The position numbers and the translations under genes were made by a program. The notes below the pieces were generated by a model. The model saw only the letters and a program-made list of their open reading frames with translations, searched no databases and was not told where the DNA came from. Positions 12,419-17,022 of a DNA stretch of 64,000 nt are shown piece by piece. This DNA comes from Halanaerobiaceae bacterium (GTDB lineage: Bacteria > Bacillota > Halanaerobiia > Halanaerobiales > Halarsenatibacteraceae). Each line of letters starts with the position of its first letter. Position 1 is the first letter of the stretch. The DNA lies in NCBI GenBank assembly GCA_003553485.1, contig PWEJ01000088.1, forward strand, positions 1 to 64,000, written 5' to 3'.

Positions 12419-12777
12419 TTTTTGCTCCTGAATTTTAGTGAGTTAAATTTTGTGATTTACTCTAACTGAATTACTACTTTTTTCCTATAAACCCCTCTCT
12501 TTTTATAAAAGCAGAGGGGTTTATCACTTATATAACAACAATCATAAAGAATATGAAGCCTCCTTATCCTAAGCAAGTTCTTTAAATGTACAGGAAATTA
12601 ACTTAGTAATTTTTTTATAATTGTGAAGGAATTCTTTTTTTAGCAAAGAATAATTGTTATAACAGTAACTAAAGTTTTTTATAAGGTGATTAGTAATAAT
12701 TTTTAGTTAATTTTTGCTCTTTTAAGTTTATAATTTCACAATGTAGGATCAAATAATTATAATTTGGGGGGGTTTTT
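12419..12777 (+). other. 359-nt AT-rich intergenic region ahead of the Mo-enzyme island
   Basis: Holds the hinT terminator, then about 250 nt of very AT-rich DNA with no credible ORF or structural RNA. ATTGTGAA at 12620-12627 and its exact inverse TTCACAAT at 12735-12742 could be half-sites of a CRP/FNR-family regulator, but they are over 100 nt apart and may be chance. I find no sigma-A promoter with correct spacing; a TATAAT-like box occurs near 12729 without a good -35, which would suit an activator-dependent promoter. Confidence 0.4.
12486..12530 (+). terminator. Terminator after hinT
   Basis: A 12-bp stem (ATAAACCCCTCT pairing with AGAGGGGTTTAT, 12487-12524) around a 14-nt loop. T residues lie in the 3' arm of the stem rather than as a long run after it. 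It separates the chaperone operon from the Mo-enzyme island. Confidence 0.7.
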
Positions 12778-13482
12778 ATGTCAAAGGATAAAGAAGGTTT
12801 AAGTAGAAGGAAATTTTTGCAGCAGACAGCTTTGGGTACAGCAGCGCTTTATTCCAGTTTGAATTTAGTAAAACCAGACAAATCTAAGGCCCAGGATTAT
12901 AGCTCTGATAGAAAGACGATATTAATGGACCATAGTCTCTGTGTTAAATGCTATGCCTGTCGCCTGGCCTGTCAGAATGAAAATGACTTTCCTAAAGAGG
13001 CTCAAAGCATTAGTTTTAAAAGCTTTGAAACTGGGGAATACCCTGATGTTACCTATCATCTCACTCGCTGGAGCTGTTTTCATTGTAATGATGCTCCCTG
13101 TATTGGAGCCTGTCCCGTAGATGCTATTGATAGGTCAACAGGAGAGGTGAATACCACTGATATTGCAGAGTGTATAGGTTGTTATGAGTGTCAGGAAGTT
13201 TGTCCCTTTGAGGTACCGCAAATAATAGACGGCAAAATGTATAAATGTAATGGTTGTGTTCATCTTCTAGACCAGGAGCTTAAACCTGCCTGTGTGACAA
13301 CCTGTCCCACCTATGCAATTAGTTTTGGCTCTGAAGAAGAAATGGTAAAAAAAGCTAAGGAGCGTCAAAAAGAATTACAGGGGAGAGATAAGGAGGCTTA
13401 CCTCTACGGCCTTGATGCCCAGGATGGTCTGGGTTTACTGTTGTTACTTAAAACAGCACCAGAAGATTTTCAATTAAGTTAA
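12778..13482 (+). CDS. Tat-exported four-cluster ferredoxin-like electron-transfer subunit (PsrB/TtrB type)
   Basis: 234 aa. A twin-arginine signal is evident (SRRKFLQ, Arg10-Arg11, hydrophobic stretch to about residue 30). Sixteen cysteines form four [4Fe-4S] sites: C55/58/61/65, C100/103/108/112, C132/135/138/142 and C157/160/172/176, the arrangement of the electron-transfer subunit of DMSO-reductase-family enzymes (PsrB, PhsB, DmsB, TtrB). It should pass electrons to the molybdoenzyme encoded 27 nt downstream. Having its own Tat signal resembles TtrB rather than PsrB. RBS is a run of seven G residues. Specific respiratory role not determinable from sequence. Confidence 0.88.
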   Translation: MSKDKEGLSRRKFLQQTALGTAALYSSLNLVKPDKSKAQDYSSDRKTILMDHSLCVKCYACRLACQNENDFPKEAQSISFKSFETGEYPDVTYHLTRWSCFHCNDAPCIGACPVDAIDRSTGEVNTTDIAECIGCYECQEVCPFEVPQIIDGKMYKCNGCVHLLDQELKPACVTTCPTYAISFGSEEEMVKKAKERQKELQGRDKEAYLYGLDAQDGLGLLLLLKTAPEDFQLS

Positions 13483-13512
13483 TATAAATATTGCTCATTA
13501 AGGAGGTAAATG

Positions 13513-15699
13513 ATGACGTTAACAAGAAGAAAATTTATAAAAACAGTGGGAATGACAGCTGGAGCACTAGGGTTGGCCAGTAAAAGCCTGGATTTTTCTA
13601 GCTGGGCCCAGGAACAACAGGAAATTCAGGGAGAGAAAAAGCCCAATTTATGTAATGTCTGTGCCAGTCATTGCGGGATGTGGGTACATGTTAAAAATGA
13701 TCGTATCTGGAAGGTTACCGGCCATGAGGATAACGACCGAAGTCAGGGCAGGCTCTGCCCAAGAGCTCATGGAGGGATTGATTGGGTCTATGACCCCAAC
13801 AGAATTAAAAGGCCTTTAAAAAGGACAGAGGAGGGCGACTACTCTCCTATAGACTGGGAACAAGCCCTGGAAGAAATAGCCGATAAACTGTCTCAAATAT
13901 TGGAAGAAGAAGGACCTGAGAAGGTTTTTTATGCTCATAACCCTCGCAGAACAGGGGTTTTTTATGGCAATAGATTAATGCATGCTTTAGATATTAACAC
14001 TATTTGCACTCATAATGCCGCCTGTAATACTGCTGTAACTAAAGGTTTTTCAGTAACAATGGGAGGAACTCCCAGTGCTGATATAGCCAATTGCGAATAC
14101 CTGGTTTTTCTAGGCAGAAATTATGGTGGTGGAATACGGACCAGTCAATTAAAAGCCCTGCAGAAGGCTATTAAAAACAACTGTGAAATAATCTGTGTTG
14201 ATCCCCGTCATAATGAAACTGCCTTTATAGCTGACCAGTGGTTACCTATTAAACCGGGAACGGATTTAGCCCTAATGTTAGCTGTAGCTAATGTAATAAT
14301 TTCTGAAGAAATGTATGATCAGGAATTTATTGCTGAAAAAACAAAAGGTTTCTCTGATTTTAAAGATAATATCAGCGATTATACTCCAGAGTGGGCTGCT
14401 GAACTAACTGATATTTCTGCTGATAAAATAATAAAAATGGCTCAAGGATTAGCTGCAGCAGCGCCAGCAGCTATAGTATATCCCAGCTGGAAAGGGGCCT
14501 TCGGTTGTAATTATGAAAATAGCACCGAAACTGCCAGAGCTGTAGCCTGTGTTAATGCCTTACTAGGCAATATCAATCATCAGGGAGGTTTGTTTTTTCC
14601 CAATGGCCCCGAGACAGGTAGTTTAGATGAAGAAGATTATCCCTCTCCGGCAACCCCGAATACTCGCCGAGCAGATGGAGCAGGAGAAGAAGATGGATAT
14701 CCCCTGGCAACCAATCATGGTTTGCCGCACTTATTAGCTGAAAAAATAAAGCAGGATCAGGTTAAAGCCGGTATTGTTCGTCATCACAATCCGGTACGCA
14801 ACTTTCCTGATTATGACCACATGCAAGAAGGATTTGGCTCTTTAGATTTACTGGTAGTTTTTGAAACTCAGATGTCAGAAACAGCTATGGTAGCTGATTA
14901 TGTCCTGCCGGAGTGTACTTTTGCTGAGCGAGAAGAAGTTATAGAAGCAAGGGGTGGGCAGGAATATGGTACTTTAGCCATGAGAACCCAGGTAATTCCT
15001 AAAATGTATCCCCAGACCAAAAGTTTTGATGAAATAATCTGTCAGTTAGCAGAAAAATTAGGAGTAGCAGAATATTTTAACTTTGCTCTGGATGAGGTAA
15101 ATGAGGCAATATTAGAACCCTATGATATCAGTCTGACTGAATTTAAAGAAAAAGGCTCAATGCAGGTTCCTGTAGATCCTCCCGAGGTTGATGATGAATT
15201 GAATACTGATAGTGGCAAATTTGAATTTTATTCTCAGGAATTTGCTGACCATGATGCTCCTCCAGTCGTTGGTTGGATTCCTCCAGACAGTGGACTGCAA
15301 TTTGCAGAGAATGAATTTCGGCTAATACATGGTAAGGAGGCTTTCCATTCTCATACCGCAACAGCCAATACTCCACAACTTTTACAGATCACTAAAGATT
15401 ATCAAACGAATAGACTCTGGATTAATGCTGACAGAGCTAAGGATTTGGGGATAGAAGAGGGAGATGAGGTTAAAATAAGTTCAGATATTTTTTCTTCCAC
15501 AACCAGGGTTAAGTTGACCCAGCGAATTCAGCCCGAGACAGTTTATTACCCGGCAGGTTATGGCAATAGAACCCCCCATTATCGAGTGGCTCAAAAAATA
15601 GACACTTTAAATCCCAATGATTTTGTAAAATATCAAAAGGAGTCAATTGTAGGTCATGCGATGGTTAATGAGGTTATTGTCAGCATTGAAAAAGCCTGA
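13513..15699 (+). CDS. Tat-exported molybdopterin oxidoreductase, PsrA/PhsA-like catalytic subunit
   Basis: 728 aa (an ATG three nt earlier is possible; the one at 13513 has better spacing from AGGAGG). Tat signal TRRKFIK with Arg5-Arg6. One [4Fe-4S] site, Cys47/50/54 and Cys82. The Mo-bis-MGD fold follows, with a dinucleotide-binding C-terminal domain. Cys171 in HNAACNTA sits where PsrA/PhsA have the Mo-ligand Cys. Length (about 730-765 in PsrA/PhsA) fits polysulfide/thiosulfate-type reductases better than ArrA (about 850) or TtrA (about 1000). Substrate unknown: polysulfide, thiosulfate, selenium or arsenic oxyanions are all possible. No NrfD/PsrC membrane anchor and no TorD-type chaperone is encoded nearby. 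Confidence 0.88.
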   Translation: MTLTRRKFIKTVGMTAGALGLASKSLDFSSWAQEQQEIQGEKKPNLCNVCASHCGMWVHVKNDRIWKVTGHEDNDRSQGRLCPRAHGGIDWVYDPNRIKRPLKRTEEGDYSPIDWEQALEEIADKLSQILEEEGPEKVFYAHNPRRTGVFYGNRLMHALDINTICTHNAACNTAVTKGFSVTMGGTPSADIANCEYLVFLGRNYGGGIRTSQLKALQKAIKNNCEIICVDPRHNETAFIADQWLPIKPGTDLALMLAVANVIISEEMYDQEFIAEKTKGFSDFKDNISDYTPEWAAELTDISADKIIKMAQGLAAAAPAAIVYPSWKGAFGCNYENSTETARAVACVNALLGNINHQGGLFFPNGPETGSLDEEDYPSPATPNTRRADGAGEEDGYPLATNHGLPHLLAEKIKQDQVKAGIVRHHNPVRNFPDYDHMQEGFGSLDLLVVFETQMSETAMVADYVLPECTFAEREEVIEARGGQEYGTLAMRTQVIPKMYPQTKSFDEIICQLAEKLGVAEYFNFALDEVNEAILEPYDISLTEFKEKGSMQVPVDPPEVDDELNTDSGKFEFYSQEFADHDAPPVVGWIPPDSGLQFAENEFRLIHGKEAFHSHTATANTPQLLQITKDYQTNRLWINADRAKDLGIEEGDEVKISSDIFSSTTRVKLTQRIQPETVYYPAGYGNRTPHYRVAQKIDTLNPNDFVKYQKESIVGHAMVNEVIVSIEKA

Positions 15700-15786: not shown

Positions 15787-17022
15787 ATGAAAAAAGGAAT
15801 AGAACTATCAGAAGCAAGAAAGATAATTCAAAACAATATCAAAGATTTTCCAGCTGAGACTACTGGAATAGAAGCAGCGGCAGGAAGAGTTTTAGCAGTT
15901 GATATCAAAGCGCCCATTGACCATCCCCCCTTTGCTCGCTCCCCCCTGGATGGCTTTGCTCTGCGGGCAGTTGATACTAAAGGGGCTAGGGCTGATTCGC
16001 CCCTTGAACTTAAAATTGTTGCCAAGACCTATGCCGGAGATGAACCAGCAGATAAAATTTCTTCCGGTCAGGCAGTGAGAATAATGACAGGTGCTCCCAT
16101 GCCAGCAGGAGCTGATTCAGTTATTCGGCAGGAAGAGACTAGCTGGCAGAACGACGTAGTTAAAATAATGAAAGAACTACAACCCGGTCAGAATTATGCC
16201 CCTGCCGGTGAAGATATTAAAAAAGGAGAACTTCTCTGTAAAGCAGGAACTTTACTCCGCTCTCCCCAGATAGGGGTGCTGGCTAGTATGGGTATAGCAG
16301 AAGTCAAGACCAGGCCTTTGCCCAGGGCAGGAGTTATTACGACGGGGAATGAGCTTAAGCCAGTGGGAGAGGAGTTAACTCCAGGGAAAATTTATAACAG
16401 CAATAATTACCTTTTTGCCTCTCGCTTAGATGAATGTGGAGCAGAAGTGGTAGATAGTTCAGTTGTTCAGGATGAAAAGGAAAAAATTCAGGCTAAAATA
16501 GCTTCTATGATGCCAGAGTGTGAGATAATTATAACCACCGGTGGGGTCTCAGTAGGAGAAAAGGATTTAATGCTGGATTTATTGGAAGATATGGGGGCAG
16601 AAATCTTTTTCTGGAAAATCGGTTTAAAGCCAGGCACCCCGATAATCTGTGCAAAAATTAAAGATAAATTGCTTTTTTGTCTCTCAGGCAACCCTGCTGC
16701 GGCAGTTATAACCTTTGACTTGTTAGTTAGACCTGCTCTTATTGCCATCAATGGTTTTAAACATGTTGCCCTGCAAGAGGATGAGGCTGTTTTTATCGAC
16801 GAATTTAATCGTCCCAGTAAAAAAAGAAGATTGCTAAGGGCAATTTTTGTAAAGTCAGAACAGGATAATATTGTTAAATTAGGTCGAGGTAAGCAGCGTC
16901 CCGGGGTATTAAAGACCACTCTAGAGAGCAATTGCCTTATCGATATTCCAGCTGGTTCTCCACCTTTAAAACCAGGAGATAAGGTTAAGGTCTTAAAACT
17001 TCCGGTCTTATATAATTATTAA
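15787..17022 (+). CDS. moeA: Molybdopterin molybdenumtransferase MoeA
   Basis: 411 aa, normal length. Contains the MoeA signatures DHPPFARSPLDGFA, the GEDIKKGE hinge, TTGGVSVGEKD and SGNPAAAV of the MogA-like catalytic domain, and a C-terminal beta-barrel domain. MoeA inserts molybdate into adenylylated molybdopterin. Placed 87 nt after the Mo-enzyme, it plausibly supplies cofactor to it; other Moco genes are not in the window. Closed by a strong terminator. Confidence 0.95.
   Translation: MKKGIELSEARKIIQNNIKDFPAETTGIEAAAGRVLAVDIKAPIDHPPFARSPLDGFALRAVDTKGARADSPLELKIVAKTYAGDEPADKISSGQAVRIMTGAPMPAGADSVIRQEETSWQNDVVKIMKELQPGQNYAPAGEDIKKGELLCKAGTLLRSPQIGVLASMGIAEVKTRPLPRAGVITTGNELKPVGEELTPGKIYNSNNYLFASRLDECGAEVVDSSVVQDEKEKIQAKIASMMPECEIIITTGGVSVGEKDLMLDLLEDMGAEIFFWKIGLKPGTPIICAKIKDKLLFCLSGNPAAAVITFDLLVRPALIAINGFKHVALQEDEAVFIDEFNRPSKKRRLLRAIFVKSEQDNIVKLGRGKQRPGVLKTTLESNCLIDIPAGSPPLKPGDKVKVLKLPVLYNY

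Follow-up and report, generated by a model that had tools for sequence, protein, structure and literature searches.

A Tat-exported reductase pair of the PsrA/PhsA lineage without a linked membrane anchor gene in Halanaerobiia

In genome annotation, enzymes of the PsrA/PhsA lineage are read as respiratory systems, which conserve energy via a quinol-oxidizing anchor. Soluble, exported two-subunit MopB enzymes without a dedicated anchor are represented by ArrAB and the Desulfovibrio-type FdhAB, which use CymA or c-type cytochromes. For the selenite reductase Srr, an operon layout of rhodanese-A-B-NrfD-TorD-rhodanese was reportedly described by Wells et al. in 2019. PsrA, PhsA and SrrA share one lineage and a Cys ligand (PMC7331816), and consequently neither tree placement nor gene layout fixes the substrate of the enzyme considered here.

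This enzyme is encoded by a gene pair in the window, i.e., the whole stretch of 64,000 nucleotides that was analysed, which corresponds to contig C25 of a Halanaerobiia genome (2.84 Mb, 172 contigs, 97.7% complete). The pair resembles PsrABC of Thermus thermophilus (PDB 2vpw) and Wolinella succinogenes in its MopB lineage, the Cys Mo ligand, the Tat-exported catalytic subunit and the four-cluster Fe-S subunit, but it lacks PsrC/NrfD in the neighbourhood as well as in the genome, and its Fe-S subunit is encoded first and has its own Tat signal. With PhsABC (Salmonella; E. coli plasmid copies) it shares the best-scoring NCBIfam model (PhsA, NF012032) and a THxxxC motif with identical spacing, and the E. 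coli plasmid PhsA is about 29% identical to the catalytic subunit. The score of 408.7 bits is, however, below the curated cut-off of 694, there is no PhsC cytochrome b, the gene order differs and the protein does not nest with PhsA. In terms of gene layout, Srr of Bacillus selenitireducens is matched by a sister clade with the Srr-type arrangement, and the host's own paralogue retains TorD and rhodanese, whereas genes for rhodanese, TorD and an anchor are all missing next to the window copy. ArrAB and FdhAB are likewise exported heterodimers of a catalytic and an Fe-S subunit without a dedicated anchor, but they belong to other MopB clades, and the host has no NapC/NirT or cytochrome c assembly match.

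Gene pair, lineage and conservation

The features of the locus are the following:
12778..13482, + strand: PsrB/NrfC/FDH-beta-like Fe-S subunit for electron transfer, 234 aa, equipped with a separate Tat signal (ORF, Pfam, NCBIfam, alignment)
12802..12822, + strand: SRRKFLQ twin-arginine motif near the N-terminus of the Fe-S subunit (sequence)
13500..13506, + strand: Shine-Dalgarno sequence AAGGAGG ahead of the tandem ATGs of the catalytic gene (sequence)
13510..15699, + strand: catalytic MopB subunit, 729 aa, PsrA/PhsA/SrrA lineage (Pfam, PDB 2vpw match, trees)
13522..13542, + strand: TRRKFIK twin-arginine motif of the catalytic subunit (sequence; R6 and R7 invariant in the alignment)
13651..13758, + strand: codons of C48, C51, C55 and C83, N-terminal [4Fe-4S] ligands of the catalytic subunit (invariant alignment columns; PF04879)
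14023..14025, + strand: codon of C172 (C171 on the 728-aa count), predicted Mo ligand in THxxxC (alignment)
15787..17022, + strand: moeA, molybdopterin molybdotransferase, 87 bp downstream of the catalytic gene (NCBIfam MoeA, 337 bits; Pfam MoeA_N)

As proposed in the earlier note, each subunit carries a twin-arginine signal at its N-terminus, the Fe-S gene comes first, and both open reading frames were recovered at the positions given there, in a locus lacking an anchor gene. The Fe-S subunit contains 16 cysteines forming four [4Fe-4S] cluster motifs; it scored 59 bits for Fer4_11, which is over the Pfam cut-off, and about 100–110 bits for the NCBIfam models of NrfC, FDH-beta and DmsB, each time under the equivalog cut-off. 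The catalytic gene follows after a gap of 27 bp, and its product is over the cut-off for all three MopB Pfam domains (PF00384, PF01568 and PF04879). Translation from the first of its two tandem ATGs yields 729 aa, and the length of 728 aa given before fits a start at the second one (position 13513), which lies 6 nt from AAGGAGG. The residue formerly named as probable Mo ligand, Cys171, equals C172 on the longer count: across 14 aligned catalytic sequences, among them E. coli PhsA, H168 and C172 of THxxxC do not vary and keep the same distance to the next GG, and R6, R7, C48, C51, C55 and C83 are likewise invariant. An AlphaFold2 model of the catalytic subunit built on a three-sequence alignment was unusable (mean pLDDT 33).

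Consistent with the branch favoured in the earlier note, the catalytic subunit is a member of the PsrA/PhsA(/SrrA) lineage. Its top solved relative is PsrA of T. thermophilus (PDB 2vpw; E 5e-92, residues 5–729), and in a tree of 30 proteins a clade of PsrA, PhsA and the window protein was supported with 99/95, which excluded an ArrA-like protein (from genome G331), a DmsA-like protein as well as two formate dehydrogenases. A quick tree of 47 proteins gave a support of 96 for the PsrA/PhsA grouping. As family, ArrA (NF041714; 150 bits vs. a cut-off of 1600), TtrA, DmsA, NapA and formate dehydrogenase were ruled out by model scores, and ArrA, DmsA and formate dehydrogenase also by the tree. Matches on Thermomicrobium and Halorussus plasmids were large, distant proteins and uninformative. 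In the 30-protein tree, the window protein falls into an eight-member clade found in Halanaerobiia only (100/100), followed outward by G112, G041/G425 and a clade of mostly rhodanese-flanked clusters; the reference branches are long, which leaves the branching order around PhsA/PsrA unsure. Nesting inside a characterised clade, named in the earlier note as an observation that would speak against its reading, was not seen, as the protein is far from ArrA and lies outside the characterised PhsA and PsrA sequences. The suggested parallel to the gene order of TtrBCA and SrdBCA applies insofar as the Fe-S gene is first, but it looks convergent, since G112, the closest non-Halanaerobiia relative with an anchor, has the order FeS-cytochrome b-catalytic-TorD and the TtrA model (NF011567) gave 57 bits against a cut-off of 1750, which places the enzyme outside the TtrA lineage.

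The pair is directly preceded by a gene for a HIT protein and directly followed by moeA, and the remainder of the window, as read, consists largely of housekeeping genes. No sulfur gene adjoins the window copy, and no electron donor gene is linked to it. Relatives of the same genus or family include the MAGs T1Sed10_23 and CSSed165cm_605; the order HIT-FeS-cat-moeA recurs in T1Sed10_23 (locus L001), orthologues with 70–78% identity occur in related genomes, and four other genomes from three genera carry orthologues. Together with strong purifying selection on the catalytic gene (pN 0.13 vs. a saturated pS of 0.78) and on the Fe-S gene (dN 0.32, dS 2.08), these orthologues and the shared gene neighbourhood argue against a chance arrangement. 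They also bear on the idea that a once anchored complex is degenerating here and that the pair left over plays no part in respiration, for which the lost anchor and adjacent TorD as well as the insertion among housekeeping genes could be invoked: in view of the selection, the invariant cofactor ligands, the spread of the orthologues and the adjacent moeA, we regard such decay as highly improbable.

No clear operator common to the window and T1Sed10_23 emerged when the regions upstream of the pair were compared. In the window, the half-sites AATTGTGAA and TTTCACAAT, which lie ~110 bp apart within 12616–12750, resemble split CRP/FNR-type half-sites and are not clearly common to T1Sed10_23. A promoter-like match at 12735–12763 was unconvincing due to its closeness to the start codon.

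Membrane anchors in the host and its relatives

On reading the locus, no anchor or TorD gene was found between or next to the two genes. On the genome level, NrfD (PF03916) had no match in the host and seven further family genomes and was over the cut-off in only one of 59 genomes of the class. The model is sensitive enough for this purpose, as the NrfD proteins adjoining six relatives score 77–145 bits against a cut-off of 25.8. None of the eight family genomes had a cytochrome b561-type (PF01292) or NapC/NirT (PF03264) anchor, and for cytochrome c assembly (PF01578) the host gave no match, in contrast to four relatives. Hence, the second observation named in advance as contrary evidence, an unlinked anchor gene, was not made for NrfD, cytochrome b561-type or NapC/NirT proteins genome-wide. 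These three families define the reach of the search. The lack of any anchor of the searched families favours a soluble or extracytoplasmic donor over an anchor encoded elsewhere.

Outside of the class, the picture differs. All 13 non-Halanaerobiia relatives with readable flanks carry NrfD or a cytochrome b with 3–4 transmembrane helices adjacent to the pair, in the layouts A-B-NrfD, A-B-cytochrome b or, in G112, B-cytochrome b-A. In contrast, neither was found at eight Halanaerobiia loci comprising the window type, the paralogue type and a rhodanese-flanked copy in G331, with the sequence of the window-type locus in G025 stopping about 100 bp past the gene. A gene rich in transmembrane segments near the G024 orthologue was rejected as anchor candidate, since it encodes a FecCD transporter.

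The Fe-S subunits differ accordingly between the two groups. A twin arginine is present in all aligned sequences of the Halanaerobiia clade and missing from G112, G088, G425, G122 and PhsB. The Fe-S subunit of G112 aligns well with those of Halanaerobiia, but it features a hydrophobic helix at the C-terminus and is devoid of a Tat signal, whereas the Halanaerobiia proteins have the signal and lack the helix. The simplest reading of these sequences would be that the anchor of an ancestral, membrane-bound enzyme was lost in Halanaerobiia and that the Fe-S subunit gained a signal peptide, resulting in a soluble exported heterodimer. The rhodanese-flanked copy in G331 (L051:7124-12924) reads rhodanese-A-B-TorD-rhodanese, with no NrfD between B and TorD. 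It belongs to a different clade, in a genome of the same class, and represents an apparent second, independent anchor loss.

An alternative option is a quinol-linked pair, which would share with its paralogue an unlinked anchor from beyond the searched families, such as DmsC, NarI, a protein of the NapGH or NapH/NosR type or a membrane protein of unrecognised kind. Such anchors are used by the characterised PsrABC-type enzymes and by all relatives outside of the class, the host possesses two UbiA-family genes, one of them MenA-like but under cut-offs, so that menaquinone may be present, and in a draft of this kind an anchor could fall in a gap. However, the relatives agree with the host, the three searched families are lacking in 8/8 family genomes, and no locus of the clade, whether window-type or paralogue, has an anchor. 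Moreover, G024 (98% complete) encodes both reductase paralogues with zero UbiA-family matches, so quinone may be dispensable. On this balance, a quinol-linked enzyme appears unlikely.

Electron donor, maturation and substrate

We therefore consider that the pair may constitute a soluble, anchorless periplasmic reductase of the PsrA/PhsA/SrrA lineage, which most likely acts on polysulfide or thiosulfate and is supplied by a soluble or peripheral donor; to this reading as a whole we give about an even chance. Halanaerobiales, to which the salt-loving, anaerobic host belongs, are diderm, and export thus leads to the periplasm. There, a catalytic subunit with Mo/W-bisPGD and a Cys ligand would pair with the four-[4Fe-4S] subunit, each having been exported by Tat via its own signal; a TatC is present in the host genome. 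Electrons would enter via the Fe-S subunit from an extracytoplasmic donor rather than from a quinol-oxidizing NrfD or cytochrome b.

Five MopB proteins are encoded in the host: the window protein, a paralogue on contig C31 and formate dehydrogenases on C45, C58 and C158. The C31 paralogue of the catalytic subunit is 58% identical and lies in a cluster of the order TorD-FeS(Tat)-cat-rhodanese. Besides the TorD of this cluster, which is unlinked to the window pair, no other was found in the genome. This qualifies the statement of the earlier note that a TorD-like chaperone is missing: this is correct at the locus, but not genome-wide. Maturation of the window enzyme probably proceeds via this single TorD. 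The C31 rhodanese (L045:11557-12615) appears as two ORFs, which represent one gene with an in-frame TGA in YCGGFFUGHSH. An in-frame TGA is likewise found in G024, G025, G331 and G122, with Cys at this position in G154, G119 and G084. The protein is likely a selenocysteine protein, judging from its reading frame, and matches the UxxS rhodanese selenoprotein type (PMC13188914).

The best donor candidate in the genome is the FdnG-like, Tat-exported Sec formate dehydrogenase on C45, which is encoded with an Fe-S subunit and an FdhE-like gene (L067:5641-10368). Reading of this locus revealed no cytochrome b subunit or anchor beside it, and it is this combination of Tat export and lacking adjacent anchor that suggests it as a possible partner. 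The C58 enzyme is a Sec formate dehydrogenase without Tat signal. On C158, an ORF of 1127 aa (L069:7363-10746) combines a full MopB protein of the formate dehydrogenase type with a fused membrane domain of the NqrB/RnfD type (PF03116); it is adjoined by apparent NuoE/NuoF-type genes and looks like a membrane-bound formate enzyme. Going one step further, Halanaerobiia could operate a chain without NrfD or cytochrome b anchors, quinol or c-type haems, in which electrons pass from protein to protein between a soluble Tat-exported formate dehydrogenase and PsrAB-type reductases. This scheme is speculative and, in our estimation, quite unlikely; if true, sulfur or selenium compounds would be reduced at the expense of formate wholly within the periplasm.

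With respect to the substrate, thiosulfate or polysulfide is suggested by the rhodaneses encoded in the paralogue operons and by Sulf_transp (PF04143) genes in the vicinity of two clusters, that of the G024 paralogue and that of G112. Selenite is the main alternative, and the enzyme could be an Srr-type selenite reductase or a metalloid detoxifier acting on other selenium or arsenic compounds, which would be compatible with an anchorless pair. Sister-clade clusters (L056, L057, L058, L062 and L064) show the order reported for srr, and the G024 paralogue lies near YedE-type genes and a LysR regulator of the selenium-metabolism type (229 bits, cut-off 250). In G331, the window-pair orthologue (L050:5218-14145) is accompanied by genes for a polyferredoxin, another TorD, a likely TatC and an ArrA/ArrB-like pair, which scored 1097 and 230 bits and thus in each case under the cut-off; these ArrA/ArrB-like neighbours make an arsenic or selenium role possible. 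On the other hand, placement and layout are undiagnostic in a lineage shared by SrrA, PsrA and PhsA (PMC7331816), YedE/YeeE and rhodanese are in keeping with thiosulfate, too, and neither ArrA nor TtrA is among the MopB proteins of the host. On balance, a selenium or arsenic substrate is hence rather unlikely.

Implications for Halanaerobiia and soda-lake sulfur cycling

Already known are the enzyme lineage itself and the results of a soda-lake study, in which many taxa were seen to carry and transcribe phsA-type genes and generally no orthologues of phsB and phsC were recovered (PMC6704655). New are the lack of NrfD across the class, apart from a single genome over the cut-off, the lack of two more anchor families across the family, the accompanying change of the Fe-S subunit and a conserved set of two paralogues.

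A class that keeps exported catalytic and Fe-S subunits without the anchor breaks the inference from gene content to a respiratory polysulfide or thiosulfate reductase. In this context, the electron route to enzymes of the PsrA/PhsA lineage, and any energy conservation associated with it, become testable, which also bears on sulfur cycling in soda lakes.
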